From positions 46,073,646 to 46,137,645 of the forward strand of contig OX453272.1 of assembly GCA_949710005.1 (NCBI GenBank): DNA of 64,000 bases, given 5' to 3'. A program made the translations under genes and the position numbers. This DNA is from Ricordea florida (Eukaryota > Cnidaria > Anthozoa > Corallimorpharia > Ricordeidae). This document shows, piece after piece, positions 19,491 to 59,740 of this stretch. Numbering within the stretch: the first letter of the stretch is position 1; each line of letters begins with the position of its first letter. Below the pieces are notes generated by a model. It searched no databases. It had not been told where the DNA came from and saw nothing but the letters and a program-made list of their open reading frames with translations.

Positions 19491-19583
19491 AATTTATGGG
19501 TTTGAAAAAATTGAAAACTGAACAAGACTAGACACGGAATCAGTATATCCACTCAGAAAAACAAAGTGGCGCAATCTAATTCA

Positions 19584-20450: not shown

Positions 20451-20511
20451 TTAAATAATGTTTAGTTTCCTAGTATGACTCTTACTAGGTTAGAATGGAT
20501 TAACTCATAAC

Positions 20512-20907: not shown

Positions 20908-20914
20908 TCCATAA

Positions 20915-21800: not shown

Positions 21801-21835
21801 AATCAATTTAGAAGTTCCCATATTTAGCATCAAAT

Positions 21836-22780: not shown

Positions 22781-22786
22781 ATTTAA

Positions 22787-22966: not shown

Positions 22967-22972
22967 TCCAAA

Positions 22973-23608: not shown

Positions 23609-23640
23609 CATTTTAAAAGGAAGTTATAGTCGTAACAAAT

Positions 23641-24249
23641 ATGGATGAGTATAACAGAATCTATCCCGAGTTACCTCCAGCGGCTCCCCCTCCCACATCT
23701 GATGGTCCATCATTCAGACTTCAACAATGTTGTGATGCTTTGAATAAGCTTAAGTATGAATTAAGCCACTATGAGACAGTACTCAAAAAATACAACCGAT
23801 CCAAAGGCGTACTAATGAATGTAAGCTCAACCTGTGGTATACTCTCTTGCGTTTTAGCAGCTGGTGGATTAGGTACATCTCTTAGTGGAGTTGGAATCAT
23901 AGCATCGGTACCCTTGGGGGTAGTAAGTGGTGTATTTGTATGCGCATCAATAGCATGCCAACAAATATCCAAGAACCTATCCAAGAAAGCTGTAAAGCAT
24001 CAAAATACAATTACACTGGCTAAATCAAAAATAAACACCATTGAAGACTTGGTTTCAAAAGCGCTTCGTGACAATAAGATTTCTGATGAGGAGTTCTCCA
24101 TGATAATCGAGGAACTTAAGAAATTTGAAAAGCTCAAGGCTGATATAAGAGCCAAAGCTCAAAAAAATCTGCCGAAAGAATACGATCCAGTGGCTGTGGA
24201 ACAGAAAGTATTAGAAGAGCGCCTCAAAAAACTCAAAGGAGGACGATAA
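23641..24249 (+). CDS. Adintovirus membrane protein with Pro-rich N-terminus, 202 aa
   Basis: The N-terminus is a Pro-rich tail (YPELPPAAPPPTSDGP), similar in kind to the late-domain tails that recruit budding machinery, though no exact PPxY or PTAP motif is seen. A helical region follows, then a Gly/Ala/Ser-rich membrane hairpin at about residues 60-110, and a long charged C-terminal helix with INTIEDLVSKALRDNKISDEEF, which looks EF-hand-like but lacks a complete calcium loop. I recall numerous close relatives in cnidarian genomes, always unannotated. Possibly it is a virion membrane protein. Confidence 0.6.
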   Translation: MDEYNRIYPELPPAAPPPTSDGPSFRLQQCCDALNKLKYELSHYETVLKKYNRSKGVLMNVSSTCGILSCVLAAGGLGTSLSGVGIIASVPLGVVSGVFVCASIACQQISKNLSKKAVKHQNTITLAKSKINTIEDLVSKALRDNKISDEEFSMIIEELKKFEKLKADIRAKAQKNLPKEYDPVAVEQKVLEERLKKLKGGR

Positions 24250-24319
24250 CCATAACTTATGACAAGGTATCTTATTGAGTTAAACACTATAACCCTTCTA
24301 CCCAAACACTGGATAGAAG

Positions 24320-25870: not shown

Positions 25871-25912
25871 AAATTGAAATAACCAATCCATGGATATGCC
25901 CATTTGTAAATC

Positions 25913-26278
25913 ATGATATCACTAGCTATCGTTGGTAGTGAGAACTTCTTTGACAGTGACTTCTTGAAAGAGCAAATAAGGAAGGCTCTTAAGAAATGGA
26001 AATTGAATCTCTCAGACATTGAATGTATCGTATCTGGATGTGAAATGGGTGTTAACACTATGGCTGAAGAATTTGCAATTCAAAATGGAATACCATTCAA
26101 GAAGTTTGAACCTCAATGGGAATATTATGGTAAAGCAGCTGGGCCAATTCGTAATAGGGCTATTATGGAGTGTGTAACACATGTATTAGCCCTAACTTCA
26201 ATTTGCTCAACAAGTACTAAGTCAGCTATCAAGATTGCTAGGAAGTACAAGAGGGAGGTTATAGTAAAATATGTGTAA
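25913..26278 (+). CDS. SLOG/YspA-like (cpYpsA, DUF2493-type) Rossmann protein, 121 aa
   Basis: The protein starts with a Rossmann strand and turn (ISLAIVGSENF, residues 2-12), has a second strand with IECIVSGCEMGVNTMAEEFA at about 37-56 corresponding to the SGGArGaD..AE motif of the family, then GIPFKKFEPQWEYYGKAAGPIRN, matching the W..YGkaAGPiRN signature almost exactly, and a final STSTKSAIKIARK helix. These are hallmarks of the SLOG superfamily, which binds nucleotide-derived ligands and is common in phages and bacteria. The GGARGAD loop is altered here to GCEMGVN, so ligand specificity may differ. This is an unusual accessory gene for a eukaryotic Polinton, probably acquired horizontally. 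Confidence 0.8.
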   Translation: MISLAIVGSENFFDSDFLKEQIRKALKKWKLNLSDIECIVSGCEMGVNTMAEEFAIQNGIPFKKFEPQWEYYGKAAGPIRNRAIMECVTHVLALTSICSTSTKSAIKIARKYKREVIVKYV

Positions 26279-39703: not shown

Positions 39704-41629
39704 GGTTACTGATGTGACGTATCGCACGAACAAGCAAAAATTGAAAGTTTTTAAGTGCTTTTATCTGAGTTTGCCAATCAATCAAAAAAAAAAAAACACT
39801 CAACTCAGATCCACACACACACACACAAGCACACTGTCGAGTTCACTTGAGTTCGAGTGACAGTTCTGTTATACAGAACCCTGAGAGTTGTTATTTCATT
39901 GAACGCATCAACCATGACGATTTAACTATTCTTTGAAACCTGCTTTTTTGTTGTGCATGAAGTGATTTGAAAATCTGTCCCTGGAAGGGAGCGTGGGTCA
40001 ACTCGTTAGTGACACGTGTGTCACAGTAACTCTCTTGTTGTTTTGCAAAACGAATACATGGACTAGAAAGATTCACACAGATAATGGAATTTTGCTCGTA
40101 TTTTTGTTGCAGAGCGAGCGGAGCAGCAATTCATAATCAAAATTTAACATTCAGCGGATCACAATGCTTCGCGCTGTTGTAAAGCCTCGTTTTCAGCGGC
40201 CAGAATGCACTGCGCATTGGTAGAGCCTCGATTTGAAACAAGGACAACAACAAAGAAGGCCTGCACTGTCATCTTCCTTTTCGAGTTTCGTCTGAGCTAG
40301 TTATCAGAATCTAATCAAATGTGGATTGATAACAGTGTTTGCGAGAAAGGTTGACTCAGGGACGTATCATATGTATATTGTAAAACCATGCGAGTCAAAA
40401 TGATGAACTTGAAACGGCGTTCCGCTGTTCTTTGGCGTATTTATTTTTCGATACAAGGCTGTTGCCTTGGTGGGGAGACTTGATTTACGGTCTGGAGCTG
40501 TGTCGCGCCTTGCCGTGTCAGAGCCGATCAATCAACTTTTGCAGAATAATGCAGTATAGTATTCAAAGCTAGCAGTTCGAGATTTAATGTTTGTTGGTAA
40601 TATCTTCGCATCTCAATTACAAGATTAATTTATTTCCGATTGCACGGCCTTTTTTATGCTAAGAAAGCGAGCCATTCTTCCGAGGCAATACGCAGTGGTA
40701 GAGTTGAATTTCCTACAACGATCACAGTCATAAATTTCCGAAGCACTTTTATAGTCCTGGCTACACTAGTATATATCTTATTTCTCCGAGTCAGCAAACC
40801 AGTCTAGATACCAAATTGACTGGAAAAGGCAAAAATATCTGTTAACATGCTTTTCAGTGATCTTAATTTTAACCTGATGCAATTTGTTTTGTGGTAGGTG
40901 ATGCGCAGTTTGTGACAGTGTTGTTCAAGTATTCGATGCGCCTACACAATCCTACCCAAAACCTTCATTCCGTGCTTCATCATTAGCTTAATTTGTTTTG
41001 ACTAACAGTTTACCAGAAATTGACCCTCTCAGCAAATCCTCTACCAAATTTTCCCCTACCAATAGCCATGCATAGATTTCTCAGGTTTTTTTTTGATAGA
41101 TTTTTCGGTGTACTTAAAGGCGTCCTAATTTCATAATTGTATAATTATCGGGACCAAGTTTTCCTTATAAAGACTTAAGGGGGCCGTCTAGTCAGATTTT
41201 TTGTTAATTTTCGGTCATCCAACCATTTTTTATATTTTTACTTAAAACTATAGTTTAACCAATTTGACGTTTCGAGCGTTAGCCCTTCGTCGGAGCATTC
41301 GCTCCGACGAAGGGCTAACGCTCGAAACGTCAGCACCTCCCATTCACCTTACGGTGGTATAACTTACTTAATCAACTCGTTTGATTTATCCAATTTCTTA
41401 TAGTATCAGGTAAGTCTGATTGCCAACTTGTCAGGTTCCAGTGTTCACTTTTCTTTTGACTAATTGAGAAGATTATGACAATCTTCGTCTAATTCTAACG
41501 GTTTTCTTTTGGGAAATATTACTCATAAATTCAGCCTCTGTCACTGTTACTCTTCTACTCAGAGTCGTAACTTATTTCTTGACTCTACTTTCTATAACTT
41601 TAAGACAGCTAAGTAAACGACATAACTAA
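39704..41629. other. Intergenic region upstream of PKS copy B
   Basis: No gene is recognised. It contains a short (AC)n run near 39814, GC-richer motifs at about 40100-40230, and the perfect palindrome at 41265. The promoter and the exon carrying the initiator ATG of copy B should lie here or further left, but neither could be identified by eye. Confidence 0.45.
41265..41332. repeat. Perfect 32-bp-arm palindrome, Penelope/hammerhead-like motif
   Basis: The arms carry ACGAAGGGCTAACGCTCGAA and its complement, separated by ATTC. The motif resembles the minimal hammerhead cores I recall from Penelope-like elements (CUGANGA, stem, GAAAC, GUC), with one core change. A related, damaged copy is at 47702-47735. 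Confidence 0.6.
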
Positions 41630-41713
41630 GTAATTGTTTACGTCGAAGTTTCAGATTATTCTTTCTACATTATTAGATACGACCATTCCCATAGAAGAGG
41701 GAAGATACCTCAA

Positions 41714-44280
41714 GTGAAGTGTCACAGCACCATTTTCAAATGGTGGAGAAGACTGTCACTTTGGATTCTTGTGGCCCAAGAGAAGGCATTTGAGCGGTTT
41801 GGGTTTTTTCTTGCTCGTAAGCCATTTGCTGTCGCTGCGACAGTACTCATAGTTGTAATTGTAAGCTGCCTGGGTTCCATTCGAGTCCATGTTGAGAAGC
41901 CATCTGAGGATCTGTTTATCGCAGCTCAGAGTCCTTCACGGCAGAGTCTGCACCAGGCGGCTAAGTTTTTTCCTCTCCTTAGTTCACGGAAAGAACAATT
42001 AATCATGCTACCAAAAACTAAGCACAATGTTTTGAGTAGAGATTGCTTGAAAGACGCTGTTCTCATACACAAAGCAGTAGTAAACATAAGCGCCTACAAA
42101 GAAATATGTGCAAGACAGCATCTGGGAACTTTCAGCTTACAAAACAACAATTGTGTCATCAAAAGTCCGTTGGAGCTGTCTGGGAACCGGTTTGAAAGTT
42201 TAGAAAACTTGTCTTCTATTCTACTCAGTGAATTGAAAAAGCCCAGTATCATCCTTTCTACGGGTCAAACATTTAATTCATCCCACAGAGAAATGCTGGC
42301 TAATTTCCGCTCAGATCAGGGAATCGCCTGGGCTGATGCAATGAGAATAATGTTCTTTATAAAAGAGCCAGTTACTCAACTAGAGAAAGAAAAGGTGATG
42401 AACTTTGAGAAATCTTTTGAGAGTGTAATTGCATCTGTTAGTCAGCAGCTCAAGTGTTCCTCAGTTTCCTTCAAGACCAATAGAGCAGCAAGTGATGCTA
42501 TAGAAGATGTCCTGCAGCCCAAAGTCACACCGTTATGTTTGTCAGCTTTGATTATTGCAGGGCTCGTGGTTATTGTGTTGTACCTTTTCACTTCTACTGA
42601 TCTAGGATTCCTTGCAATTTTCTCTCTGGTTTTTGTTGCTACATATTTGCCTCTGGCAATTACTGCAGGGGTTTATTCTATGGTAGGTCAGCCTCTTCTT
42701 CCAACAGACTTGTTTATTTCGTTCCTGTTGTTGGGAAAAGGTGCATCTGACTTACTGCTCATCTTGAGGGAGTGGAAAAGACAGAGAAATGTGCCATCAC
42801 TTGAATATAGAGTAAGCGCCTGTATTTTTCGTGCTGGACTCCTTGCAAGCTTGTCTTCCATTTGTGGGATTATACTCTTTGGAGTTGCTACAAAATCTTC
42901 CTTTCCGGGGATTTTAAACTTCTTTGTTTTTAGTTTTGTAGTTTTTTCGGTATGTTCCCTTATAATCACAACTCTAGTTATGGTGCTGTTACTGTACTAT
43001 GAGCGGAAAACTATACAACACTGTCTACGAAGAGACTCCCCAACAGTCGAGGAAATGCCTGCGGGAAATGGCCTATTTAAACATGAAGGGACACTGAGAA
43101 GAACTCTAAAAAACATAACACGGTCCATGACATCTATGGTTGGAAAATGTTTTTTTGTTTTTATTCTAGCTTCAATCATAACCTTATGTGTGATCTCCGC
43201 TTTAAGACCACAAGATAGAATAGGAGAAGTCGAAACTCTTTATCAGAGTAAGAACTATGAGAATTTTAATGCCTTTCGTGTCAAGTACTTTAACATAGAA
43301 ATTGATGCCCACATTGTCTTTGCACAAAAACTTAACTATTCACAACCAGATGTGCAGCAGAAGATTACAAGAATTTGCGAGGACCTCGGAAAAGCTTCCT
43401 ATAGCAGAGAAGATTCAACCTGTTGGATAACAGCCTTTAACAGTTGGAGAAAAGTTGAAGATATGACATGCTCAGGTCTGGACTTTTACAAGTGTTTGAA
43501 GCAGTTCCTTAATCAGAGCACAAGCTTCCAATACCATCAGGACCTAAAGTTTGACTCTGTTTCTGGCATTTACGTTACCCGTATTCATCTTCATTTGACA
43601 AGGCATAGTGAGATTCAAGAAGGCAGGCGAGCACTCGGATCTCTTCGTAAGGATCTCTTAAATTCAGTGTTGAAGGCTAGTGCAGTTTCAGAAGAGTTTT
43701 TCCGTCTGGATGATTTTGATTTTTTTTATGAAGAAATTCTTAATGTGCTCATCTTTGGATCTGTTGTAGTGTTTTTGTGTTCTGTATTGGCAAGTGCCAG
43801 TGTTGTGTTTAGTATCTACCTCACTGTTACATTCAATTTTCTACTGCTGGAAACTGCCAGTCTGATGCAGGTATTAGAAATTGAGCTAAACCAGATCTTG
43901 TTCCTCGTCCTGTTTGCTGGAGCAGTATTATCATTAACCTTTAACATCCAGGTGGTTCAAGCATTTGCTTGGTCAGGAAAACAAGACGTAAGAGCTCGCA
44001 CAGTTGATGCTATGCGGTGTGTCTCCTTGTCAATACTGCTCTCAGCATTTCTGTACATTGTTGGGTCGATTTCATTGGGTCTCATCTTTCCGCATCTCAA
44101 GATAATTTTCTTTGTCGTTTTTCCTTTGATCATTGTGATTGGGCTTCTTCACGCCCTAATCCTGCTGCCTCCTCTTTTGAGTCTGACCGGCAAACTGTTT
44201 GGCAGATTTGATCCCTCGGATATTGATGAACTTGTGCCATCAAAACGTCGTGAAAACGTACCACTGTCAACTATGGACAG
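41714..44280 (+). other. N-terminal Patched/RND membrane module of the PKS
   Basis: Residues 1-855 have the RND/Patched-domain layout. TM1 is at about 36-55 and is followed by an extracytoplasmic domain (60-270). TM2-TM6 (about 274-428) form a sterol-sensing-domain-like block, then come TM7 (479-497), a second extracytoplasmic domain (500-675) and TM8-TM12 (676-850). In TM4 the usual GVDD motif of Patched-type proteins reads GASD (residues 343-346, within LLGKGASDLLLILREW), so one of the two acidic residues used for ion coupling is replaced by Ser. Relatives move sterols and other hydrophobic molecules. Here the module is in the same exon as the ketosynthase, so the fusion cannot be a splicing or gene-model artefact. 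Confidence 0.85.
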
Positions 44281-47200
44281 CTATAAAACGCATTCCAAAG
44301 GAAAACGACCTGGTGTTGCTATCGTAGGAATCAGTTGTCAGTTTCCGGGAGCCAGCAGTAAAGATATGTTTTGGGATATGCTTGTTAAAGGAAAGTGCCC
44401 TATAGGCCAGTATCCAAGCAACAGATTGGAGGAGCACAAGAAATTCCATGACCTGTACCACCCAGAGCGCTTTGTTAGTGGCCGTATCTGTGCTACCAAG
44501 GGCTCGTATCTGGAAGAAATCCAGGCCTTTGACAACACCTTTTTCGGAATTTCACACCAAGAGGCTCGTGCAATGGACCCTCAGCAAAGAATTCTCTTAC
44601 AAGTGGTTTATGAAGCTATCGAAGATGCAGGAATGCGACTGGAAGATCTCCAGGAGTGCAGAACTGGAGTCTTTGTCGGTGTGATGAACTTAGATTACGG
44701 AGCTCTGACAACGGATCATTCAAATTATAAGAACATTGATCAGTTCTCGTCAACGGGAATAACAGCATCCATAATTGCCAACAGGATATCCTTTTGTCTT
44801 AATCTCAATGGCCCGAGTGTTGCAGTCGACACAGCTTGCTCGTCGTCACTTACAGCGCTTAAAATTGCATGTGATAATTTGCATCATGGAGACTGTGAAG
44901 TTGCAATAGTATGCGCATCTAACGTCGTTCTTCACCATGCCATGCAGATGGTCTCGAGTATGGCGGGTCTTCTAGCACCTGATGGACGCTGCAAAAGTTT
45001 TGATGCCTCTGGAGATGGTTATGGAAGAGGAGAAGGCATTGCTGCAGTTATTTTGAAGTTAACAGCTGCAGCTTTAAATGACAGAGATGACATGTACTGC
45101 GAAATAGCTGCCTGTGGAATAAACAATGACGGACAAAGCTCTGTACCAATTACGGCACCAAATGCAAAAATGCAGGCTGAGTTATCCAGGAGGGTTTTGG
45201 AGCAGTCTGGATTGAGCCCTGAAGATGTCGATTACGTCGAGGCACACGGTACAGGTACAGCCATTGGAGACGTTGTAGAAACTAATTCCATAGCAGAAAT
45301 TTATACAAAGGGAACATTACACACCCGAAAACTTAGAGTGGGTTCCGTTAAGTCAAATGTTAACCACACAGAGTCAACATCAGGTCTTGCTGGCCTGATC
45401 AAGGTCGCTTTGATGATAAAGAATGGAATGTTTGTTCCAACTGTTAACGTGCGTACTTTGAATCCTAAACTTAAACTACTCGAGAAGGGATTGGTTGTGC
45501 AGCAGACATGCGAGACGTGGAGAGCTACGAGGGGAAAACCACGAGTTGGAGCTTTAAATTCCTTTGGTTATGGCGGATCCAATGTACACGCTATTGTTCG
45601 TGAAGTTAAAGAATCAGAAGAGGAAACACTTCAAGACAATCGAAGACGTCTGAACTATGTGCTCACCATTTCAGCGCGTTCAGAGTCAGCTCTCAAACAG
45701 ATGGCAGCATTGTATGGACAATGGTTAGAACGTCATGTCAATGATAATCATCATACATTAACAGCAAACATCTGCTACTCCCTTACAGATCGTCGAAGTC
45801 AACTTCCACATCGCTTAGTACTTTCATTTGATGTCAGCTCAGATGCATGCAGGTCTCTAACAGCATATGCAAACGAGTCAATTGGTTGGGACAAGATGGT
45901 TTCTTATGGTGAAGTGGTGTCAGTGGATCGGAAGCTTGTATTTATGTTTGGAGGACAAGGTTCTCAGTGGTATGGCATGGGGAGGCAGCTGATCGAGGGT
46001 GAGGTTGTATTCAAAGAAGCCATAATAGAAGTAAGCAGCATCATTAAGAAGTTAGGGGAGGACTGGTCGCTTTACGACGAGTTGATGGCAATCGAGGACA
46101 TGTCAAGAATTTCAGAGAATTGGCTGGCACAACCGGCAACGTTTGCTGTGCAATATGCGACTGTACAACTGCTTAAGTCTTGGGGTATATACCCTGCTGC
46201 TGTTCTTGGACACAGTCTGGGAGAGTATGCTGCTGCAACTACTACAGGAATAATCACATTAGAAGAAGCGGTTAAGCTTGTGCTAATGCGTTGCAAACTA
46301 CAAGAGAAATGCACCTACAATGGAGCTATGGCTGCAGTAGGCATGTCTGAGGAAAAAGCACTGGGACTTTTCGAGGAGTTAAAGCTGAGCAATACTCTTG
46401 AAGTAGCCGCAGTCAACGATGCAAACAGTGTAACTGTTTCCGGGGATTCTGATTCTGTAAAAGCCCTGGGTGATCATCTAAAGATGCACGCAAGTGGAGT
46501 ATTCTGGCGCGTTTTAGGAACAAAACGTGCTTTTCATAGCTTTCACATGGAACTCATTAGACAACATTTTCAGTTGCACGCCAAGCGTCTTATTCTAAAA
46601 CCTAAACCGTCCAAAATACCAATGTATTCCACTGTCACTGGTGAAGTGGTTACTGGTCAGGAGTTGATTGGTGACTACTGGTGGAGAAATATTCGATGTC
46701 CAGTACAGTTCTATGCAGCTTTTAAACACGTCCTAGAAGATGGTTACAAGCATATTATCGAAATCAGCACCCAGCCAATTTTAGCCCACTACGTCAAACA
46801 GATAGCTTCACAGGAGAATCTCAAAGATGACAAACGACCAATTGTACTGGAAACCCTTCCCCGAAAGAGAGTACCAGTCAATAACCAGCACAAAAGCTTT
46901 CTTCAAAACACTGTCTGCAAACTGTACTCATTAGGGTACCCAGTTGATTGGAACCGTCTGCAAGGACGTCCGAACGCGAAATTTGTCCGTCTACCGAGCT
47001 ATCCTTGGCAACGCAGCCTCTTCTGGTACCGAGACCGGCTTCCTCTAGAGACGATCAAGCCTCTCTCCACTGACCAACACCCAGCCGACAGTCAGGGCCC
47101 CATGACAGATCATGGAGAACAGACTCATCCGTTTCTGGGAAAAGTTTTGTCAACGCAGCAATTTTCAGGCCTTCATTGCTGGGAAACCGAGATTGACCTC

Positions 47201-50200
47201 CATCAAACTCCATATCTGAAAGATCATGCTCTTATCCAAGGGGGCGCCATAATGCCAGGAGCTGGGTATCTGGAGATGGCTTTAGCAATGACCAAACACG
47301 AGTTCTTAGGACTTACTGGAATGGAGCTCAGCAATGTGACATTTTCCAGTATTTTAACACTGCCAGAATCACAGGTATGTGAAGTAATAAGACTAGGCTA
47401 TCAACATTCTGTTTATTGAAACATAAAATGTAAAATTGAGTGATACTGTGTTCTGAGAACCATGGAGCGATAATTAGATATCTCGCTCAGTGCTGTGCAT
47501 TCAGGAGAATTTTTCATTCACTACTTAGTGTTATGAACATTAGAGAGGCGTTTATCATTACTTAGTGTTACGAAAATACAAGAAGGAGCCGTTCGTTGCC
47601 ACTTGTTATGAACGATGGAGAATCATTAGTTCATTAGAAATTGGGATAATCATACAAGTTGATAAAGTAATTTGTTCCACCGTAAGATAAAAGAGTGGGG
47701 TGCTGACTTTTCGAGCGTTAGCCCTTTGTCAGAGCAAATGAGGATTATGTGTTACGTGCAATTTATATAGAGAGGTTTGGAGCTATGCCATTGGTGGAGC
47801 CCTAGCAGCGTGTGAACTCTAATTAAATGAATTAAAAACGTTCGTTGATATCTTGGGGATTAAGAGAAACGAGTTGGAAGATAAATCTTTGTTCTACGTT
47901 TCTACGGCTTTCTGTGCTACCCTGATGTAGGAAAAGGCCGCAGATCGCCATATTTTGACTGGAATGGTTCGGCAGATTAAAGTGTCGCGCTACTGGTTTG
48001 GATGCATCACTCAGGGTAATGAGAATAAGAGAACCATCCTACAATTACTCAATCTTACGAACTATTCATATTTAGATCCGGACTCTACGCCTTCGCCTTT
48101 TGAAAACTGATAAGGTGAGCGAGGCTGGATTCAAGGTGACTAGCGTACAGGACGATCGCACAGAGATTATGTTGTGCCAAGGAAAGGTTACTGCGGATTT
48201 TTTGCAAAGAAAGGGGCAGCATTGCGAACAAGGTATCATTAAGCTTAAATTAGATTGACTTTATCGTGCTTTTTAAAAGCTCATTGTTCCTCTCGTGTTT
48301 TATGTCTTTTAGTTTCTCTTAAATTGATGTGCTTATGTTTTTATTTTATAAGTACAATAAGTGTCCGCTATACATTTTCAGGTTCACGTTTCCGAACATA
48401 TACAATGTACAATTTATACGCACGCCTTCTCAATTTATTTACTCTGCAGCTTTTATTTTCAGCTTCTTCTACTCCTAATACTCCATCCAATTTCTTATAT
48501 ATTAAATTCCTGAGGAAGGATTAGATACAATACTTTGAGGGAGTCGCTTGTCTTCCAGGAGATGAAGTGACTGTCGTAATAATTTGCTGTTTCTTTTTTT
48601 CCGTTTGACTCACAGCTTCACATCATGTTGGAAAAGTCATGCTTGAACTCCTTCAAGATATGGAGGAACTGCCAATAGAGCAATTCAGAGGAACAACAAA
48701 GAGGTTTGGGTTTAATTATGGGGAAACCTTCTCTAGCATCAAACGGGTATGGAGACGAGACAACAGGGGAGTTTGTTTCATTGACATCAGTCAAATAGAA
48801 GGCGTAAAAAGAGAGGCCAAGCGTTATGTCATTCACCCTTCCATTTTAGATGCATGCCTCCAATCGTGCTTTGTTCCACTTGAAGTCAGCATGAGTGAGG
48901 ACAAGACATTGGTGCCGGTTGGTTTCAAAAGCATTGCAGTAAGTGGTGTTCCTCGTACTACTCAGTTGTTCTGCCACGTGACGGCAGATGTGTCAGATTT
49001 TGGAATATTTAATGTTGTACTCACAAGTCCAAACGGAGAAGTTCTTCTGACTATGACTGGGTTTCGTGTAGCAGAAATGACGGGTTTGTTGCGCCAAGCG
49101 TCTTTTCCTGAACTTGCCTATGAAGTACAGTGGAGGGAAAGCAGTGAGACACTGCCAACAGTAGCAAGACCGGATTTAACTTGCATTGTCCTGAAGGACT
49201 CTTCCCAGTTTTCAAGCGCCCTGGTAGATAGACTTCAGCAAGCTCAAGTACGTGTCATTACCGTTGAAGCCCCATCACTGGGAGTCTGTGATAGTGAAGC
49301 AGAGAAAACAGTCACCACTGCCTTTGCTCAAGTCATTGACCGCAATATGGAAAATTTCAGAGTAATAAACCTATGGCCGATAGATGCAACTCTTCTACCA
49401 AATGACGTCGAAGTCACTGAAAAAGCGCAGAGCCTTGCCTTTAGATCCTCAGCATTTTTAGCAAAGATTCTGATAAATTCGCAGTGTCTAGAACCTCGAT
49501 TATTCCTCATCACACGTCGCACACAGATGATAGAAAGCAGTGATAGTTCATTGGAGAAAACCTCGTTGCCTTGGGGCTCAACAGTGTGGGGCCTTAAAAG
49601 AACCGCCAACCTTGAAGACTACAACCTAAAGGTTGTAGCAGTTGACATCGAAGACAACGAAGGGCTTCAGGATTTAAATTTACTGACTAAGGAGGTGCTG
49701 GGTGAAAGTATTCAAGATGAAGTCGCCTTTAGAGGGGGAAGACGATTTGTTAATCGTCTTGTTAGATCGGAACTATCCAATGAGCATTGTGCATTACCCC
49801 AAGAGGAAAACGGTTTACTCTGTTTGGCAACGTTCCCGTCCTCTGGAACACTCTGTCTGAGACGACAGAGTTTCTCGCCGCCCTTAAGCTCCGAACTCCA
49901 AATAAAGGTGCTACATTCTTGGACGCCCTCTGAATCAATATTTGATTTGTGTAAACCACATGGTTGTATCTTTGTAAGCGGAAAAGTCACCCAACTTTCC
50001 AGTGAGGGGGTTGATTGCTTTGGGATTGGTGATGTGGTTTGTAGTGTTGTTTCCTCTGGTCGGGTTGGTAATTTTATCAACGTCAAGGTCTCTCACTCGC
50101 TTGTGAGACCAACTGTTTTGACGCCCAAGCAGGCTTCTTACATCCCTGGCTGTCTTGCTCTGGCCTCACATGCACTTAAAAGAGTTTCGTTAGGCGAGGA

Positions 50201-53200
50201 AAGCGAGAGTCTGCGAATATTGATACATGAAGCTAATCGAGGTCCCGGACCGGCGGCTGTCCTTCTTGCAGCGGCTATGAACCACAGAGTTGTTTGCACA
50301 ATTCCCGACAATTGCAGCAGTGCCTGTAAGAGCCTTATCCATGAAATGGGTGCCGAGGATGTCCTCTACCAGAGATCCCCAGCCTTTAATGTAGAATCCA
50401 TCGACAAGTTTGATGCCGTCCTGTTTTTCTACCAGCCCTCTGCAAACGTTTTTCAACGGAGCACTCGGGTTCTTAAGAAAGGAGGAAAACTGTTGATTTT
50501 GAATTCCAGTTCGGAGGGTGACTTGGTTTTCTCCGCGAGCAATCAAGTAAGTTACGAGAGAGCTGATATAGCAGATGTTTTGTTATCCCAAACTGCCTTT
50601 CAGTCACTCAGTTTACAAAGTCTAGAATTTCTGGAAACCAAGGGACTTCTAAGGAAGCTCCTTCGATTAGATGTGCAGTTATTCGACATTCTTTCAACTC
50701 TTGAGAAGATTAATGGATCTGCTGAAGAGCGCAAGAAGCATAAGGAACAAGAACCTTGTCCACAGTCTGAGAACAACATTTCGTTCACAGTTTATTCGTA
50801 TGCACGATTTGACGCAAACAAGAGCAGGATTGTAGTTCTTCCGCGTGGTTTAGATGATTGTGGACTTAAAGAGAACCGCACTTATGTTGTAGCAGGTGGA
50901 AATGGAGGTTTTGGGTTTGAAGTCGCAAAATGGATGGCACATAGAGGAGCTAAGACGATTGTGCTGCTGGGTCGTTCTAAGCCTTCGTTTAAAAACCGGG
51001 AAGAAATCATGGAAATGGAAACCAAGACGGGTGCAAGGTTTCACATGCTCCAGGTTAGTATGTAGTACTTCAAGGCTTTGTTTTCTACAGTTGCCAGAAT
51101 GGTTCAGGCTATAATAGGGTCGAATTTTGCCAAGAGAGTATAACTGACTTGTAATCAGGGCTATTTTGTTTTAAAGGTTGACATATCGAATCAAGAACAG
51201 ATGGCATCACTCATGCAACAGCTGCAGTCCTTCCCAAGTGTAGCCGGAATCGTGCTTACAGCCATGATTCTTAGAGACGAGTTTATCAAAGACTTGACAT
51301 TTGAATGTTTTGTTGAAGTCATGGGTCCTAAGATCAAAGGTAACATGTTTGTCGCTTTCACGCTACGCTATCATTCCGTCCTACTTATCGTAGTAGCAAG
51401 ACTAACTAAAGGACGTGTTACGCTGTAGTTGTTCAGAGTTTGGTCATGACTCTCATTCCATATTCCTTTGAAACAACCAGCTGTCAGAGCTATCCGCGAC
51501 TTATTCATATACGACAGAAATAGGAAGAGGACGATTCTTTTCAACATACAAGGAATGGCCCTTCAGCTCAATATTTTAAGCGTGTTGGAAACCACACCGC
51601 TTGCAATCCAGTGCAAAGGTTTAGAGGGCGGTTCTTAGGGGTTAAACTTTGTTTGACAATGGTGATGGTTATGATGATATTAGTAGTGATGATGATGTTT
51701 TTTTTTTGCCGTTGTTGTTCATGTTTTGTTCATAGGATCACTTTTACTGCATCAAATGAGTCTGAACATGGATCTGGATTTCTTTGTCATGTTTTCGTCC
51801 ATGGTATCCATCGTTGGTAACATGGGACAAGCTTCCTACTGTGCAGCAAATGCTTTTCTAGATTCTCTTGCTGTGTACCGTCGCCACGTCCTCGGTCTCC
51901 CGGGGCTGTCAATCAACTGGGGACCGATAAGTGGGGCTGGGCTAATGGCGAGAGAAGCTGGTATCGTTAAACTGTTAGAGATGGCAGGGTTGAGATTCAT
52001 AGACGCAAAAGAAGGTTCGCTCATATTTGTTGATAATAAAGGAAATCTTGATGCTTTTTGAACATTCGCAAGAACAGTAGATAGATCAATTTAGATTATA
52101 TGATGATACAGCTGCTACGTTACTGATTTCAACTCGACGAAAACATTTTGTTCAATATGTTACAGTTTAAAGAGACTCAAAGTTCAAGCAAATAATGCAT
52201 TAAATGCATGTTGTGAAATCAGATCTTTCTACACAGTATTTTGTCTTCTGTATAAATTAAAAAAAAATATGGTTATTTTTGTTAACAGGAGTTGAACACA
52301 TGGCAAAGGTGTTGATAGAAAACCCAGGTTGCTGTCAAATAGCCTTGTTTGACGCTGACTGGCCCCGTTTTCTAAAAAGCAACATGGGATTAGGAAAATC
52401 GCCAAGACTCGCCGACATCTCAGCCGAAGCCGACGGTTCTGAGGCTCGCTTATCAGAGTCACTAGCACAAAGGGTTGTTTTGGAGAAGGATAAAGACAAA
52501 AGGGCAAAGCTTGTGAAAGAGTATGTCGGTGCTTCGTTAGCAGAATGGACCAATAACCCCTCGCCTTCCGAGGGGGATCTGAATAAAAGCTGGTATAGTT
52601 ACGGAGTGGACTCTACAGCAGCTCTGACACTTAAGATTCAACTGGAATCGAATCTTCAGGTCTCATTTGAGGTTGGTTCACCAACGTTTAACAACATATA
52701 AATAACAACAGTGCAACTTCACTTACACGTGTAATCTTTTTCTACTACCTTTTCAGGTGTTCTACTTTATGCAGCCGGACACCACTCCCCTGAAAATGAT
52801 AAGTGACATAACAGCCAAGCTCAGCAGGCAACACTCCAGTTCTGAGGTACCAAGTAACGATTCGCAAGGTACAGACCGTACAGAAGCTACTGCTGTAGAA
52901 CCACAGCCAGATTCAACCAAACACTCAGGAGATCCAGTACAGGTAGTTCCGCTGTACACTCCCGCAGGCACAGCCGTAAAGTTTTTCTGTCTCCATCCGT
53001 CGCATCGTTACGCCATGAGTTTGGTTCCAATTTCTTCAGGCTTTCAAGGACAGGTAAATACTGACCAGTATTTAAGAGAAAAAAAGAAATGTAAAACAAA
53101 TGATAACGCATTGGTCAAGCATTTTCTTACGATATTTCTGTTAGTTTTAAAATCTTTCTAATATTTGGCCATAAGTTTCAGTTCAATTTTGATTCCTTTC

Positions 53201-56200
53201 TTTTTCTTAACTAGTGCGTTATCTTACTTTGCCTTGTTTATTCATCCGCCATCTCATGTTGCTTTCTGTTGCGTTACCATTTTGTTACGTAAGATCACCC
53301 TTCTAGAGTAGTATCACTTATTAATTCATATATATATATATATATATATTTGCTCTTTTTGGTTGACCACGCGGCTTGTGTTAATTTCTTTCTATTGTTA
53401 TTGTTAGCGTTTTCTCAAGTTTTTCTTCGATTTGTTTCAGAGCTAGATCCTATTCGAACCACAACTCAGACGCCGAACGCCACTCGCTTCCAAACCACAC
53501 TTCACATCGTTACCTTGGAATATAGCAATTTTCGATAGAATAAAGTTTTGTGTTAAACATATGCGCATTCGAATTATCTTCTTAAGGTCACAGGTTCAAC
53601 ATACTCAAGCAGCTAATTAAACACATGGCAATGTACACAATGAACGCGTTATCAAGTTTCAAGTGACCATGTTCGGTAGGAGACTAGGGGCTTTTGGCTC
53701 TTGCACCTTGCCACTATAATATCGACCTGCTTATGCTGAATATCCTGAATGCACCCCTGGTTATCATGTGTTCCCTTACTTACTTGACTGCAAAACAAAA
53801 TTCACTCATGTGAGAGTTTATTTGTTTTATTCAGGAATTAGTGTCCTTCTATGCATTGGGCTTTACCGATCCCACAGCAGTGAGTGAAGACTGGGGCGGG
53901 GTGCGTCAACTGGCCACTCATTATGTTCAGCTCATACGTGATGTACAACGTCATGGACCGTACTTTTTGGGAGGTTACTCGTACGGTGGTTTGGTTGCGT
54001 ATGAGATGGCTTCAATATTAACAGAGAAGAATCAGAGGGTGGAGATTGTTGCTATGATTGACACATTTCCCTGGTCTCAACCTACAAGTACCATTAGCAC
54101 TAGACTGGCTTCCTTGAAAGAGAATGACAACTTAAAACAACACAATGTCGAGGTTTGTGATAAATTGACCGTCCGTTGCTTTCTAGTGTTTTTGACAAGT
54201 GACAAACACTAGAAAGGTTATTCTCTTTATTTTGCAATTGTTGAGGAGTTAGTTTTGAAGGCGTGCTGCGTCGCTGGGAAATTGTGGTCATCAAACTAGT
54301 TCATTAAAAAATTTCATATTACCTTATCATCATAAAGAGGATGAAGTTTCTAGCGGTTGCCTTCAGTCGTACCAGTTTCTTTACAATGTGAACCTCCCTC
54401 ACATACACAACTGTATTACACATGATTTGAGGGTAACTAATTTTATCCACGTAGTGTACAATTATAATTCACTGGTTGTCCTTTTTAGCCTTAGGTCCTC
54501 GAATTATTCGATCGGAGAGAGTGAGTTAAATTATAATGTTTTGAATCACTAGAACCCAACGGCTTAAGCCGTCGAGTTGCTAAATGATTTGAAATATTCG
54601 TATTTTAGATGCAGTTAGAAAGCCATATGAGAAAGTTGGCTATAGATACCTTAAAGATTCCAGTTGACCATTACGAGTCACTAACAAAAGGACGAGATCA
54701 AGACTGGATCATGGACGAATTAGAACGAAGATGTCACTTGGAGAATGTTGCTTCTTATGACCTGAAGGCACTCAAGGAGTCTTTACTGAGGGACCATGTT
54801 ATGGCCAGCAGAACACACCGTCAGTGGCAGCCACCGAAGGTAATACACCTGTTTACTGAAATTGTTCTGAACTTTTTTTTCATTATAAATGCAACAAAGT
54901 AAACTAATTTTCATTTTGTCCTATTATTGATTTCTCCATGCAGATTCGATATCGAGGCCCTCTAATATATTTAAAGAGCGAGAGAACAGATTTTTCTCCG
55001 TGGTTCCACTTAGCGCAAACCGCTGAAGATACGTGGGGGGAGTTGGTAGATGGCGGAATAACAGTGCTTATTTGCCCTGGTAATCACTTTACTATGAGTG
55101 ATGTACCCCATGCTCATGTGACAGGTGGTATCTTAGCAACATCGCTTCTGTTCTCCTACCGGACGCTGTTTCCCGACTTCCCTCGAACTCCAAGAACATT
55201 CAGTCAAAGAAGAGCAGTTGAGACGCTTTGCAGGGGAGTAACTTGCTTTCTTCATTCAAAGAAAGGTAGTAAACGAAATCAAAATGCTTTTTTTGACAGG
55301 TTATTTCTTTTGAACTGCCATCAATATCTCTGACTCTTCCTTTCATGATCACCAAGATGAAATCATCTGTCCTTTAGGTATTTGTTTATTCTCTTTCTAA
55401 ATAAATTCAAATGACTTGGTGGCATACGGTTTGCTTTTTTTGCTCTAGCAAACAAAAGGCCTCATTTTGGGGAGCTGCGTTTTGACGAAAAGAAGTTTAT
55501 TCTGGTGCTGAAAGCTAAGAAAGACGAAGAAGAAACCAAGAAAGAAATCAAAAAAAAGATCATCAGTCTTAAAGGTAAATTTGTAAAGTAAATTAATTTT
55601 GTATTGATCGCGGGAAACTAGACAATGAAACATTTGATGTTACTTAGTTCCCCAGGAAGACGTCTATTTCTAGTATTGGGCTACATGTCATTTGAATTCC
55701 AGATCACTCCTACCGAGACATATTCAGTAGTCATACTGAGCACTCATTATGGCCGCCTGCGTCATGTTTGTTTATTTGATAGCTCACGATTTAGGTGAAA
55801 AGGCCTTGTTGTTTGATGCAAAAAGTTGTCGTAGTTATGCCTAACAAAACACTAGCGTCAGTGTAGAAGACGGCGAGAAAACACTCCAGACTGTATTTTG
55901 TACGCGTAGATTCATTGCAATGTTCAGGAGTGCTATCGTACACTGTCGTACTCTTTTATGTTGTCATCTTGGTTATCGTACGAGATGCGCCTGCACTACA
56001 TGACGTTTATAAAAAGTGAATCTCCTATAGAGTAACTTACCGCTATTTTAAAACATATTTTCTATGCTATGGAGGCTTCAAGCCTAAGGAGTGTCTCGCA
56101 ACTATAAACTAGGCGTCGCATTACTGCAATGTCCATAGAAATTTGCCTCTCTATCGAGCAAACCGTGCAGTTCAATGTACCAAGGAAAAGAACCAGTTTA

Positions 56201-57462
56201 ATTGGCGCATGTGTAGCGGCGTGCGCTACGAGAGGCGAGTGGCATGTTGCCCAACACAACGTTAAAACTTCAAAGAAATGTTTGAGACAGCCGGTATGTC
56301 GACAAGTAATCGGCTTCTGAATTCAAATATTGCACAGAAATAGCGCCTTTATCATTTTTTTTCTCTTCTTTTCGTGGTTTTTAAGTGGATGATAACTCGA
56401 GCAGGGGGAGGGGGTTGGGGGACTCAAGCAGATATTAGGAGAGTAACGCTGCCTCTAAAATTTCGGCCACCAAACAGTATTCAATGTTAAACTAAGAACA
56501 TGTTTAACAACCTGTTTTTTTGGAAGGTTTATCGTTGCCAAACTCATACCTCTAAAAATTCTTATTTTCGTTCTGTTAGTAAATCCTAAAACGGCAACTA
56601 TTGCAAAACGTACAAGTGACACAGCACTTTCACGCGCGTTATTTTTCCTGATCCATTAAATTTCAAAGGCGCCAACTCTCACCCTATAATCGACATTTTT
56701 TTACTTGCTACATACTTACCCAATACAATGAATAGTCGATTTTCGAAGGAATGAACTTCATCGGTGCTAAAGTCAATTTTCTGCGAATTTTCTTATCTGG
56801 CCATTTGGCGGCCATTTTGAAAACAGTCGGATTTTGTGTCACGTGGTGTAAACGTCACAGGTCAACTTTGAAATGAAAATGCCTACTTATAATCCCTGGT
56901 ACTGTTTAGAATATTTACGCCAAAATCTATTAAATTTAAGCACAGAATTGAAGTGCAAACAGCCATTAAGTACTTCGACAACCCCCAAATGAACAAGAAA
57001 ATCTAGGATAAAAGGAAATATTTGTATTTTTTCTTACGGGAGAACGTACGTTCTACCATTGAGTTAGGGTACACTTCGAACGATAATAATGATGCTCAAC
57101 GTGTAGAGGTAAATAATACGACTTGAACATGAACAAATGTCACTAGCTGCTGAATATCAAGAAACTATTCCACTGGGGAGGATCTGACTGTAGTTAGTAT
57201 TGAAGACTTGAGATTGTCCCGTATCAGTATTCCAAGAAGATGAAGATTATTAGTCAAGGGTACCATCCCATTTATGTCTGCGCCACACGTTTCCTCTCAG
57301 TAGCCCTTTTCATTATAAAGCAGTGTTAAATCAGAACAACAATTAAACAGTTTTATAGTAGTAGCTCAAATACTGTAAGAAATACCTGGTACAGATTGCA
57401 TTTTTTTAAAAATAGCACCCAGATACCTCAACACGTACACTAATAAAAGAAACAGTATCTAG

Positions 57463-57509
<47 letters not shown>

Positions 57510-58146
57510 ATACTACCACTGCCACTGCTACTGCTACTGCTACTGCTACTGCTACTACTACTACTACTAAAATTAAATCAAATGCTGGTTTTTGTTACCA
57601 ACACATCACACCGATGAAGTTCATTGGTTCGAAAATCGACTATCCATTGTATTAGGTTAGTATTTAGCAAATAAAAAAATATCGATTTTTTAGGCGAGAG
57701 TTGCCCTTTAAATCTTAGTCAAATTCCTTGTCACTCAACGCTTGTCCCCCACCAAGGAGCGTTGCAACGGCTGCGGTAGAAACTATACGTTTCCCGCCAA
57801 TTTGATGAATATTTTCGCTGTTTACTCTATTACACCTTATTATGTCAATCCTCTACTTCTTTCTCAGTTTGTCACATAGAAACACTGCTATTTCTAAACA
57901 CTTCTTTTGTCTCTTTGAACAGATCTTCGCATGGTTCAACCAGCAAAGTTCGTCTTTACTTCCATCAAATATGCGAGACGAGTGCGAAGGGTGGGAGCGT
58001 ATCGGAGCGGAAACCTGCGACAAACCGCCTCAGTAATCACAAGCCGAAGGGTGTACAGCTTTGAATTCACTGATTTCACAGATCTAAAGGCATTTTATAG
58101 TATGATGGAAGCCGTGTTTTCATTGCCACTAACTAGTGTAAAGTAA
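41714..58146 (+). CDS. Patched/RND-fused type I polyketide synthase (copy B)
   Basis: Twelve exons are supported by AG/GT boundaries and matching phase: 41714-47374, 48076-48232, 48616-51053, 51177-51339, 51736-52014, 52289-52671, 52757-53053, 53835-54152, 54609-54839, 54944-55265, 55449-55574 and 57923-58146. They total 10,599 nt, an exact multiple of three. The first exon has no early ATG: its frame is open back to 41630, 41714 is a GTG, and a small upstream 5' exon is likely. Order of modules: 12-span Patched-like membrane module, KS, AT, DH, degenerate ER-like region, KR, ACP, thioesterase and a C-terminal extension. This is the composition of a reducing animal PKS with an N-terminal transporter-like half, predicted to sit in a membrane with the catalytic part cytosolic. 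All canonical KS, AT, KR, ACP and TE residues are present, so the gene looks functional. Its tandem paralogue ends at 98-4591. Confidence 0.9.
44296..47050 (+). other. Ketosynthase and acyltransferase domains of the PKS
   Basis: KS (about residues 861-1290): opening VAIVGISCQFPGA, catalytic Cys in DTACSSS (residue 1042), His in EAHGTGT (1178) and His in KSNVNHTES (1218), so it can condense. AT (about 1410-1740): GGQGSQWYGMG, nucleophile in GHSLGEY (Ser 1501), and second motif AFHSFHM. The HSFH sequence is closer to the malonyl-type HAFH than to methylmalonyl-type YASH, so malonyl-CoA extension is favoured. The post-AT linker ends with RLPSYPWQRSLFWY, standard for animal and fungal PKSs. Confidence 0.92.
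47120..52014 (+). other. Dehydratase, degenerate ER-like region and ketoreductase of the PKS
   Basis: DH spans exons 1-3: HPFLG, catalytic His in LKDHALIQGG (residue 1838, spacing to the following Gly and Pro one residue longer than the usual HxxxGxxxxP), and catalytic Asp in HPSILDACLQS (near 2018). A medium-chain reductase-like region (about 2370-2590) has RGPGPAAVLLA where active ERs have a GGVG-type NADPH motif, so ER activity is doubtful. KR (about 2690-2900, exons 3-5) has the intact cofactor motif GGNGGFG and the active-site FSSMVSIVGNMGQASYCAAN with Ser, Tyr and Asn. The predicted outcome is reduction and dehydration, probably leaving double bonds. Confidence 0.8.
47702..47735. repeat. 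Damaged Penelope/hammerhead-like motif in PKS intron 1
   Basis: GCTGACTTTTCGAGCGTTAG continuing to CCCTTTGTCAGAGC is a diverged half of the palindrome at 41265. The remainder of intron 1 (47375-48075) has no other recognised feature. Confidence 0.55.
52430..52830 (+). other. Acyl carrier protein domain of the PKS
   Basis: Encoded across exons 6 and 7. The phosphopantetheine site is YGVDSTAAL (Ser near residue 3007), followed by the usual helices (KIQLESNLQVSFE, then VFYFMQPDTTPLKMISDI across the splice). There is a single ACP, as in iterative enzymes. A Ser/Thr/Pro-rich linker leads to the thioesterase. Confidence 0.85.
52960..55190 (+). other. Thioesterase domain of the PKS
   Basis: Exons 7-10. 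The nucleophile elbow is GGYSYGGLVAYEMA (Ser near residue 3176) and the catalytic His is in PGNHFTMSD (near 3358). The opening FCLHPSHRYAMSLVPIS stands in for the usual oxyanion strand. This releases the product by hydrolysis or cyclisation, as in animal fatty acid synthase. Confidence 0.88.
53328..53349. repeat. (TA)n microsatellite
   Basis: About 11 TA repeats in the intron between the ACP and thioesterase exons. The rest of that 781-bp intron is unremarkable. Confidence 0.9.
55575..57922 (+). other. Last intron of PKS copy B
   Basis: Homologous to the last intron of copy A over its first about 400 bases and near 56500-56580. It contains a trinucleotide microsatellite. Small open frames at 56062-56320 overlap on opposite strands and show no domain. 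Confidence 0.6.
57462..57570. repeat. (TAC)n microsatellite
   Basis: Roughly 35 trinucleotide repeats, mostly CTA/TAC with an interrupted middle of CTG-containing units. Confidence 0.9.
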
Positions 58147-58559: not shown

Positions 58560-59740
58560 GATTTGAGACCATGTCCTTGAATAGTTTACCGCACAGCATG
58601 TCTCTTCTCTCAGTAAGTTTTTGAAGTTTTGCCTCCTCGATCGCAGCATTATAGGATAGTTCTGGAAATATTATGTTAATGGCTCTATTTTGAATTTTTT
58701 CTATTTCGTTTGATAGGTATGCTACTGTGATAGACTTGGCACGAATATTTCATGATAGATCTAATACAACTACCATAGAACCGTATAGGATCAGAACTAG
58801 AGACATCATATAGCTTTTTTAAGTTGACGCAGTAAATACAAGCGTTTACCAGCCTTGGATATTATTGATTCAACATGGCTACTCCATTTGAGATTGTCTG
58901 AAATATTAAGGCCAAGGACTTTTGCTGATGACACTCTTTCAATAAGCCGACTGTCCACGTTTATTCTATCGTAATCAATTTTCTTGAACGAGAAAACCAT
59001 TTCTTTGCATTTTAAAGATTAAGTTGGATTATTCAAAGTCCACGTGTTGATAGAACTAACTGCATCTTGCAAGACGCTTCGTGGCTGTTTATGAACTAAT
59101 TCGGACAGAGTTGTGTCGTCAGCAAATTTCCACAATGAAAAATTTTCACGTTCCATTTTGAGATGATTGATCATTACTAAGAACAACCAAGGACCAACTC
59201 TGGTTCCCTGGGCAATACCAACAGGTACCTTCAGCCATTCCGAATAACATTCAGCATTAAGCTTCACTCGTTGCGTTCTATTTCTAAGAAAGTCGATTAA
59301 CCATTTGACAATGGTAGACTTGATGCCAAGACTATAAAGTTTTGCAATAAGTAAATGATGGTCTCAGCCAGCAATCGAACATTGAAATGAGAGCGAAAGT
59401 AGTTGACGATTCATTAATAAAGCCAAACTGGGAAGGATCGATTGATTTAGATATAATTGGGTCGAGTTCTGTATCAATGGTAAAGCTCTCGGCAATCTTT
59501 GATAAGATCGATGTTAAGGAGATTGGCCTCAGGTCCTTGTTGAAGTCTTGAATGGTTTGTGCTTTTGGTATGGGTACGATGTCAGCTAATTTCCAAATCT
59601 TAGGAGCTTTGCATTATCTGAAGGATGTATTAAGGATCTCCGCTACGGGATGGGCCAAGATGTGAGCATATTCTTTTAGTACCCAGTTGGGGATATTGTC
59701 AGGGCCACCTGCGCTCGACGCACTCATCTGTCCAAGTTTT
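58560..59740 (-). pseudogene. Non-LTR retrotransposon reverse transcriptase, decayed
   Basis: Read right to left: LRPISLTSILSKIAE-like motif near 59540, VKWLIDFLRNRTQRV near 59300, GIAQGTRVGPWLFLVMINHL (59019-59267, fingers/palm motif), KFADDTTLSE (the FADD catalytic box) and the thumb region SSAKVLGLNISDNLKWSSHV (58806-59000). Frame changes and stops separate the pieces. The pattern fits the Jockey/CR1/L2-like group common in cnidarians. No endonuclease domain was found, so it is 5'-truncated as usual. Confidence 0.85.

Follow-up and report, generated by a model that had tools for sequence, protein, structure and literature searches.

The window analysed, a stretch of 64,000 nucleotides of the corallimorpharian Ricordea florida (contig OX453272.1), carries on its forward strand a gene joining a Patched/NPC1-type RND module (41714..44200, +) to a polyketide synthase (PKS). 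One stop-to-stop frame of 1929 codons (41630-47419, +) leads from the RND module through the ketosynthase (KS) and the acyltransferase (AT) to the start of the dehydratase (DH). The long exon holding the RND module, a linker, KS, AT and the first half of DH covers 41677..47374 (+), with an acceptor-like TTATTAG on its 5' side, ending at 41676, and a donor, GTATGT, on its 3' side; position 47374, where the first-pass annotation had ended the frame, is indeed the last base before the GT of this donor (CACAG/GTATGT). The codon at 41714 is GTG, and an upstream in-frame ATG is absent. Because TTATTAG ends at 41676 and the frames of four out of five paralogues run on through this acceptor site, the exon probably begins at 41677, and the start codon probably sits in an exon further upstream; a search for that exon upstream of 41677 found none. 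Beyond 47374, nine more GT-AG exons supply the rest of DH, an enoylreductase (ER)-like region, the ketoreductase (KR), the acyl carrier protein (ACP) and the thioesterase (TE), and the gene reaches at least 55273, with a tail to about 58131, further than the earlier annotation had followed it.

With regard to the PKS part, KS (44315..45451, +; Pfam PF00109/PF02801, 267 and 125 bits) and AT (45938..46819, +; PF00698, 200 bits; GHSLG and RAFH motifs) retain C1042/H1178/H1218 and S1501/H1608, respectively (P0001 numbering), in 49/49 fusions examined, which bears out the earlier claim of intact catalytic residues. The DH (47126..49076, +; exons 41677-47374, 48076-48232 and 48616-51053; PKS_DH_N 59 and PS-DH 73.7 bits) has its His and Asp, and the KR (50880..52014, +; exons 48616-51053, 51177-51339 and 51736-52014; Pfam KR 48.3 and 129.5 bits) its Ser and Tyr. 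Between them lies a divergent ER-like region (49974..50591, +) with weak profile scores (ADH_zinc_N 16.5 for a cut-off of 31.8, quinone_pig3 49 for a cut-off of 296.8, and about 25 bits for PKS ER chains). It carries RGPGPAA, in five out of five full-length sequences, where a glycine-rich motif is usual in ER, and the enoylreductase activity predicted for it is uncertain. The exon bearing the ACP (52289..52671, +; YGVDSTA) retains the serine, though its PP-binding score of 17.4 bits is below the Pfam cut-off of 20.8, a threshold around which the relatives also fall (20.9 in Stylophora P0039, 17.5 in Oculina P0024). The TE (52985..55102, +; exons 52757-53053, 53835-54152, 54609-54839 and 54944 onward; PF00975, 67.3 bits) displays GYSYGG and GNH motifs. 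By sequence, KS, AT and ACP with their catalytic residues are thus predicted on a single chain, as in a type I PKS.

The C-terminal tail exons (54941..58131, +) were located by tblastn with Oculina P0024 (54941-55273 and 57928-58131) and by eye (55415-55591). This tail is strongly conserved, with 73-89% identity to P0024 in three other full-length proteins; its reading as a PH domain is weak (14.6 bits for a cut-off of 25.1, and no significant PDB match). The window also holds the 3' exons (95-427 and 4367-4576, +) of a second, tandem gene copy that starts upstream of it and had been overlooked.

The RND module can be aligned over both halves with Patched-like genes and, by hydropathy, has the two-half RND layout, in which each half would consist of one helix, a large extracytoplasmic domain and five helices. 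In a 34-row alignment, which combines the window sequence with 33 of the 48 database fusions and underlies the RND profile, hydrophobic stretches occur at about residues 37-53, 275-344, 376-422, 477-493, 677-744 and 772-825. Large loops lie at about residues 54-274 and 494-676, the right places for an RND protein, and are taken as extracytoplasmic. Eight loop Cys are conserved in 48 or 49 of 49 fusions, sequons N124 and N165 occur in 32 of the 34 rows, and the N-terminal stretch 1-36 contains eight Lys and Arg versus two Asp and Glu. The module matches NPC1 (1.3e-9) and PTCH1 (1.1e-8) in the PDB, and its NCBIfam NPC1 score of 60.6 bits is far under the cut-off of 1016.5; Pfam gives no match to the NPC1 N-terminal luminal domain (PF16414) in P0024, P0039 or the window exon. 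The sterol-sensing domain (SSD, PF12349) scores 30.5 bits here (Pfam, 41714-47416), 35.0 in Stylophora P0039 and 18.7 in Oculina P0024 for a cut-off of 22.3, and is listed in 17 of the 35 matches of one protein search; by such profile matches, this signature is fading across the fusions. The Patched family (PF02460, cut-off 23) scores 17.8 bits here, 20.9 in P0039 and 28.7-32.4 in four paralogues. Residues about 830-867 (44201..44314, +) form a fast-changing linker from the last membrane helix to KS.

The residues of the ion relay set the fusions apart from their unfused relatives. In TM4, the motif is rewritten to G-K-x-x-[S/A/T]-D (G341, K342, D346; 42734..42751, +), K342 being found in 48/49 fusions, D346 in 46/49, and Asp at position 345 in none of the 49. 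In TM10, position 742 (43937..43939, +), an Asp in unfused Patched-like genes (VDYSAH), is acidic in 0/49 fusions (34 Asn, seven Ser, six Thr, one Arg, one His). As a control, GxGxDD was kept in all 14 distinct unfused loci scanned, a scan that omitted L106 (partly N) and C7:22.79 Mb from the places found with the Patched profile. VDYSAH was matched in seven out of nine distinct Patched-like loci, whereas in L007 and L008 the TM10 pattern went unmatched and in L101-L105 no match to it was accepted. The relay acids of NPC1 and PTCH1 likewise differ from those of the fusions. The pair of TM4 Asp plus an acidic TM10 residue that marks an ion-coupled RND protein is therefore not found, a single TM4 Asp being retained in 46/49. 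The replacement of the TM4 and TM10 relay acids in nearly all fusions makes direct ion-driven export less likely, and the module is unlikely to be a standard pump of this kind. The first-pass annotation had not noted this loss of the customary relay residues.

An initial, narrow scan of genome contigs detected no relative. The R. florida genome contains at least six copies of the gene, two of which the Patched-profile search itself had overlooked, and the first exons of the five other copies are open over 1906-1937 codons. In the protein database, 48 fused relatives were found, with stony-coral proteins from Oculina, Stylophora and Desmophyllum among them. Two relative searches scored 7999 and 8000 candidates, those with the most shared words. 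When the RND module was searched on its own, five of the strong matches carried a KS and the only other one was a fragment, and the proteins of 473-1505 aa that were scored included no unfused full-length one with a strong RND score. The counts over 49 proteins refer to 43 database proteins of at least 1600 aa and our six copies, leaving out P0048-P0052 (fused, 1036-1226 aa) and P0053 (a 489-aa RND fragment). Across these 49, distances in RND and KS-AT are correlated (Mantel r 0.916, reached in none of 2000 permutations), and RND identity between fusion members falls to 35%. In 15 pairs, dN/dS amounts to 0.25-0.36 for RND, 0.07-0.28 for KS and 0.14-0.23 for AT, and both halves are under purifying selection. 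For the loops, it is 0.15-0.41 in loop 1 and 0.21-0.47 in loop 2 (11 pairs with computable dS). The linker gives 0.85-1.94 in the five comparisons with p12; of the other pairs, nine range over 0.22-0.69 and one, whose dS is very small, reaches 2.70. The in-frame Patched/RND-PKS chimaera proposed by the first-pass annotation thus holds, with a single open frame, relatives that conserve it and selection on both halves. On sequence grounds, the fusion is common to several stony corals and R. florida, and is multicopy.

The nearest unfused relatives found for the RND half come from the same genome: they are Patched-like genes, of which six are intermingled with the fusion copies in the cluster and further ones lie at C1:31.6 Mb or on C7. 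Fourteen distinct exon-size Patched-like frames score 155-183 bits each, and some C7 frames 19-88 bits. Unlike the fusions, these genes have their RND part split over two main exons, keep the GxGxDD and VDYSAH acids, and carry no PKS. For KS-AT, PDB matches to bacterial PKS (7zma, CurL and EryA; 608, 511 and 497 bits) surpass those to animal FAS (342 bits) and the FAS-like EcPKS1 (300 bits), with aligned extents that differ among matches. By these PDB scores, an origin from animal FAS-like PKS was rejected; FAS and EcPKS1 are also animal multi-domain synthases, but the KS-AT of the fusion is nearer to bacterial PKS by score. No close bacterial donor emerged, the best 80 of 584 relatives obtained with two peptide patterns sharing 33-39% identity. 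The RND profile found no match among 1097 frames of at least 250 codons in those 80 loci, a search that distant RND genes could escape.

We propose, with a probability of about 0.6, that the protein is a bacterial-type PKS tethered to a membrane, with an RND module that senses the lipid product or passes it on. Both the N-terminus, which is positively charged, and the RND module's end would be cytosolic, and from this placement the PKS would have access to malonyl-CoA and NADPH and build a partly reduced lipid-like chain, which the TE would release as an acid beside the RND cavity. The RND module, with its eight conserved loop Cys, would bind this amphiphilic product, which it would either monitor or move on to the lumen or outer leaflet. 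Considering that Lys and Asp replace the TM4 relay, and a non-acidic residue that of TM10, the module is probably no standard pump driven by protons or cations; it would instead act as a regulator of the SSD kind or as a facilitated conduit.

SCAP and HMG-CoA reductase have sterol-sensing domains that act in regulation and are not known to move lipid. By analogy, the RND module might be an SSD-like anchor and sensor that holds the synthase at the membrane, adjusts its activity to sterol or product, and moves no lipid. We regard this as clearly less probable than our proposal, yet as its most serious competitor: SSD is the top Pfam call for the module, and nearly all fusions have lost the TM4 and TM10 relay acids while GxGxDD is kept by all 14 unfused loci, but both large loops and their cysteines, unneeded by a pure anchor, are maintained under constraint, and K342 and D346 hardly vary, as though serving a new role. 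A standard ion-driven RND exporter joined to its own synthase is improbable, for general RND/NPC1 homology and the frequent retention of D346 are countered by a position 345 that is never Asp and a position 742 that is never acidic. Still less credit is due to the idea that the halves work apart, alternative starts or processing at the linker separating the RND protein from a PKS that would be soluble. The linker does change fast and the database models P0003 and P0004 begin within the RND part, but full-length models from Oculina and Stylophora hold both halves, their distances co-vary, and the scored proteins of 473-1505 aa include no strong unfused full-length match. Lastly, the probability of an assembly or annotation artefact, for which we found no supporting point, is negligible: the genomic copies with open first exons and the 48 fused relatives exclude chance or an assembly join, so that two of the three refutations foreseen in the first-pass annotation, a join error at about 44280 and absence of the fusion from related species, failed, the third being one that concerns transcripts.

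In stony corals, a bacterial-type PKS joined to a Patched-derived RND module with a rewritten relay may conceivably sit at the calcifying membrane, make an amphiphilic lipid and release it directly into the space where calcification takes place, so that aragonite is seeded there, although we consider this doubtful. In its favour, the excerpted text of PMC4604110 reports that medaka PKS is apical and that extracts of PKS-expressing fungi rescued otolith mineralisation, that sea urchin spicules require pks-2, and that a 2015 survey recorded PKS in a coral and its absence from Nematostella and Hydra. It is opposed by the soft zoantharian Palythoa, reported with two PKS genes (data not shown) in the consulted section of PMC11413580. 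With the gene in hand, the proposal of coral PKS in skeleton formation becomes open to concrete experiments, and the rewired RND relay offers a natural case for study.

With respect to known systems, no description of an animal RND-PKS fusion was found in open-access full texts. The first-pass annotation knew of no described example, a statement that must be narrowed in view of Chromera velia and Acropora. In the available text of PMC7464705, where they occupy a few sentences and table rows, two 'ACR-B coupled' KS genes of C. velia, a coral-associated alga, are described (Cvel_8275.t1 and Cvel_22311.t1; 4523 and 4384 aa), with an N-terminal AcrB-like/sterol-sensing structure on a PKS-like single module and a predicted signal anchor. 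By this text, they share the RND/SSD N-terminus and the one PKS-like module with our fusions, but C. velia is an alveolate, and the question arises whether corals and this alga made such fusions independently or share one. The Chromera proteins were not recovered by the RND searches, which require short shared words. For Acropora digitifera, the 2015 table excerpted from PMC4604110 has three PKS genes, two of them sharing a scaffold, with the types 'other-KS-AT-DH-KR-ACP*-TE' and 'other-KS-AT-DH-KR-TE'; the domain order is that of the fusion, the N-terminal part being labelled just 'other', and these PKS probably belong to the RND-PKS family. NPC1 and PTCH1 are RND/SSD relatives by sequence that carry no PKS, and the fusions lack the NPC1 N-terminal domain. 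In mycobacteria, the RND permease MmpL7 interacts with the type I PKS PpsE, and coupled lipid synthesis and export has been proposed (PMC1238737, as excerpted), a precedent for linking a synthase to an RND protein. Those are two separate bacterial proteins, the RND partner being of the MmpL family, whereas here the coupling would be given by the fusion itself, in one predicted animal protein kept despite RND divergence, and a cell could thereby produce a fatty molecule and pass it on in the same place.

The open frame at 41630-47419 on the plus strand comprises 1929 codons, and Pfam models applied to 41714-47416 recognise a sterol-sensing domain (30.5 bits, cut-off 22.3), followed by KS, AT and the start of a DH, which bears out the claim of the first-pass annotation that an RND module is fused in-frame to KS-AT within a single exon. 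A GT donor closes this first exon at 47374, and nine more plus-strand exons (48076-48232, 48616-51053, 51177-51339, 51736-52014, 52289-52671, 52757-53053, 53835-54152, 54609-54839, and 54944 onward), modelled over nine GT-AG introns, yield one frame of 3450 residues with a stop near 55333. The downstream exons bring DH (73.7 bits), KR (129.5 bits) and TE (67.3 bits) in Pfam; the ACP is weak (17.4 bits, cut-off 20.8), as is an ER-like stretch. This domain order is common to the full-length proteins of Oculina (P0024, 3570 aa) and Stylophora (P0039, 3533 aa). Both run on into a conserved tail whose exons can be followed in the window as far as about 58131, which makes it likely that the final exon we modelled is spliced ahead of its stop. 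The tail following TE (window 54941-58131; proteins P0024-P0026 and P0039) shares 73-89% identity with P0024 in the three others, and is faintly PH-like with no other assignment. A 5' exon carrying the start codon of the window gene was looked for and not found.

Several other elements lie in the window. Short segments at 41265-41402 and 47634-47763, one of them an inverted repeat, recur near paralogues and perhaps represent a small mobile element, and a reverse-transcriptase-like fragment was noticed by eye at 59022-59363 on the minus strand. A virus-like mobile element, made up of numerous frames in succession, occupies 11478-26275. Among these frames, Pfam recognises a packaging ATPase of the Pox_A32 type (47 bits), a protein with a Rho_N domain and, weakly, a major capsid protein (21 bits, cut-off 24); two others match no Pfam model, and by eye the layout of the element is Polinton/Maverick-like.

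A Patched-profile search of the same genome revealed four further frames between 45.83 and 46.78 Mb of this chromosome, open over 1906-1937 codons and 57-87% identical to the window exon across 1609-1750 aligned columns. Yet another copy sits in tandem just upstream of the window, with its 3' exons at window 95-427 and 4367-4576. This brings the copy number to at least six, and the first exon is open in all of them. The copies span 3438-3531 residues of P0024, and five of them look complete. Copies p11 and p12 are stop-free within every match to this protein, and the in-match stops of the window gene, the upstream copy and p10 appear to fall at places where the match crosses an intron of the window model. 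The remaining copy, p09 (loci L013, L019 and L109), may be decaying, because its frame shifts close to the TE serine and nothing in it matches the tail.

Relatives in other species, for which the first-pass annotation had proposed a search, were indeed found. Three protein searches returned 48 distinct fused proteins (16, then 27 new, then 5; counted as clusters at 90% identity), and the named carriers, Desmophyllum pertusum, Oculina patagonica and Stylophora pistillata, are all Scleractinia. In five assemblies, matches on contigs of identical length suggest two or three fusion copies per contig. When the RND part alone served as query (8000 candidates scored), the strong matches were five KS-bearing proteins and a 489-aa RND fragment, the only one found besides the 48 fusions, and the sole other match was a Patched-family protein of Staphylotrichum (7.5e-5). 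The copies of the window's genome cluster with the database fusions P0003 and P0004 in the RND and KS-AT trees alike. An assembly artefact is ruled out by the further RND-PKS copies with open first exons in the same genome, and the join error raised earlier as a possible refutation is not upheld, given these copies and the 48 fused relatives. From the sequences, we regard the fusion as real and conserved.

Pairwise distances of the RND and KS-AT parts correlate with r 0.916 across 49 proteins (6 own copies and 43 from databases), a value reached by 0 of 2000 permutations (maximum 0.29). On average, two members of this set are 53% identical in the RND part and 75% identical in KS-AT. Among 15 pairs of own copies, dN/dS amounts to 0.25-0.36 for RND, 0.07-0.28 for KS and 0.14-0.23 for AT, and that of the short linker to 0.85-1.94 in the five pairs that include the most distant copy. 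The RND and PKS parts appear to form one unit under selection.

With regard to the synthase, the best KS-AT matches in the PDB are bacterial type I PKSs (7zma, 608 bits; CurL, 511; EryA, 497; mycocerosic acid synthase, 456), compared with 342 bits for animal FAS and 300 for EcPKS1, the aligned stretches differing in extent. The NCBIfam models indicated are Pks2 and PKS_plus_SDR, both far under cut-off. Catalytic residues of KS, AT, DH, KR, ACP and TE are present in the window and in four full-length coral proteins, so that the KS and AT residues are intact as first proposed. The AT carries a RAFH motif, which we take to suggest malonyl-CoA. The ER-like stretch reads RGPGPAA and scores low, so that the product may be reduced to a greater or lesser degree.

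RND transporters are driven by acidic residues in TM4 and TM10. All 14 distinct unfused loci scanned, nine of them Patched-like and five other, carry the TM4 motif GxGxDD. The TM10 motif VDYSAH was matched in 7 of the nine Patched-like loci, but not in L007 or L008. Among the fusions, K342 is found in 48 of 49 and D346 in 46 of 49, position 345 is S in 36, A in 10, T in 2 and L in 1, and TM10 position 742 is N in 34, S in 7, T in 6, R in 1 and H in 1. By these counts, the driving acids are mostly replaced, with Lys and Asp one turn apart in TM4. Eight loop cysteines are meanwhile retained in 48 or 49 of the 49 fusions. From this pattern, we read the RND module as still binding something outside the cytosol, but powered or gated differently.

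In the PDB, this module resembles NPC1 (1.3e-9) and PTCH1 (1.1e-8); the closest relatives found that lack the fusion are Patched-like genes in the window's own genome. Fourteen distinct exon-size frames from such genes each reach 155-183 bits against a profile built from the fused RND modules, compared with 94-101 bits for whole NPC1-like proteins (P0018-P0020, P0054) and 19-88 bits for frames of two loci on contig C7; no frame of at least 100 codons matched at E 1e-3 in the other Patched-profile loci (L101-L106). The fetched stretch of L106, on contig C5, partly reads N. The fusion may have descended from a Patched-like gene of this kind. On contig C1, six unfused Patched-like genes are located among or next to the RND-PKS copies (45.90, 46.01, 46.19, 46.26, 46.45 and 46.58 Mb), and others at 31.6 Mb of C1 and on C7. 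Over about 1 Mb (C1, 45.83-46.78 Mb), six RND-PKS copies are interleaved with these six genes, forming a cluster of transporter and synthase genes on the chromosome of an animal.

Most likely, with a probability of about 0.6, the protein would be a membrane-tethered PKS with an RND module that handles or senses the lipid made, independently of the usual ion relay. That it delivers a mineral nucleator is a bold extension, which we consider improbable. Palythoa has no stony skeleton. Two PKS genes are mentioned for it (PMC11413580), weakening a strict link between PKS and calcification. PMC4604110 localises medaka PKS apically in cells of the ear, reports that extracts of PKS-expressing fungi rescued otolith mineralisation, suggests a PKS role in coral skeletons, and lists no PKS in Nematostella or Hydra; three Acropora digitifera PKSs are tabulated there as 'other-KS-AT-DH-KR-ACP*-TE' or 'other-KS-AT-DH-KR-TE'.

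Searches of open-access full texts turned up no animal RND-PKS fusion, and a term search of the accessible text of a 2024 paper on FAS-like PKS (PMC10764717) returned no coral, Patched, transporter or transmembrane. The animal fusion is thus new by the literature searched, and the first-pass remark that no described example was known stands, within that literature, for animals but not for the general architecture. MmpL7 is reported to bind PpsE (PMC1238737). The one brief precedent for the general architecture comes from the coral-associated alga Chromera velia, two genes of which resemble a single PKS module in their layout and are joined to an N-terminal structure that is AcrB-like or sterol-sensing (PMC7464705).
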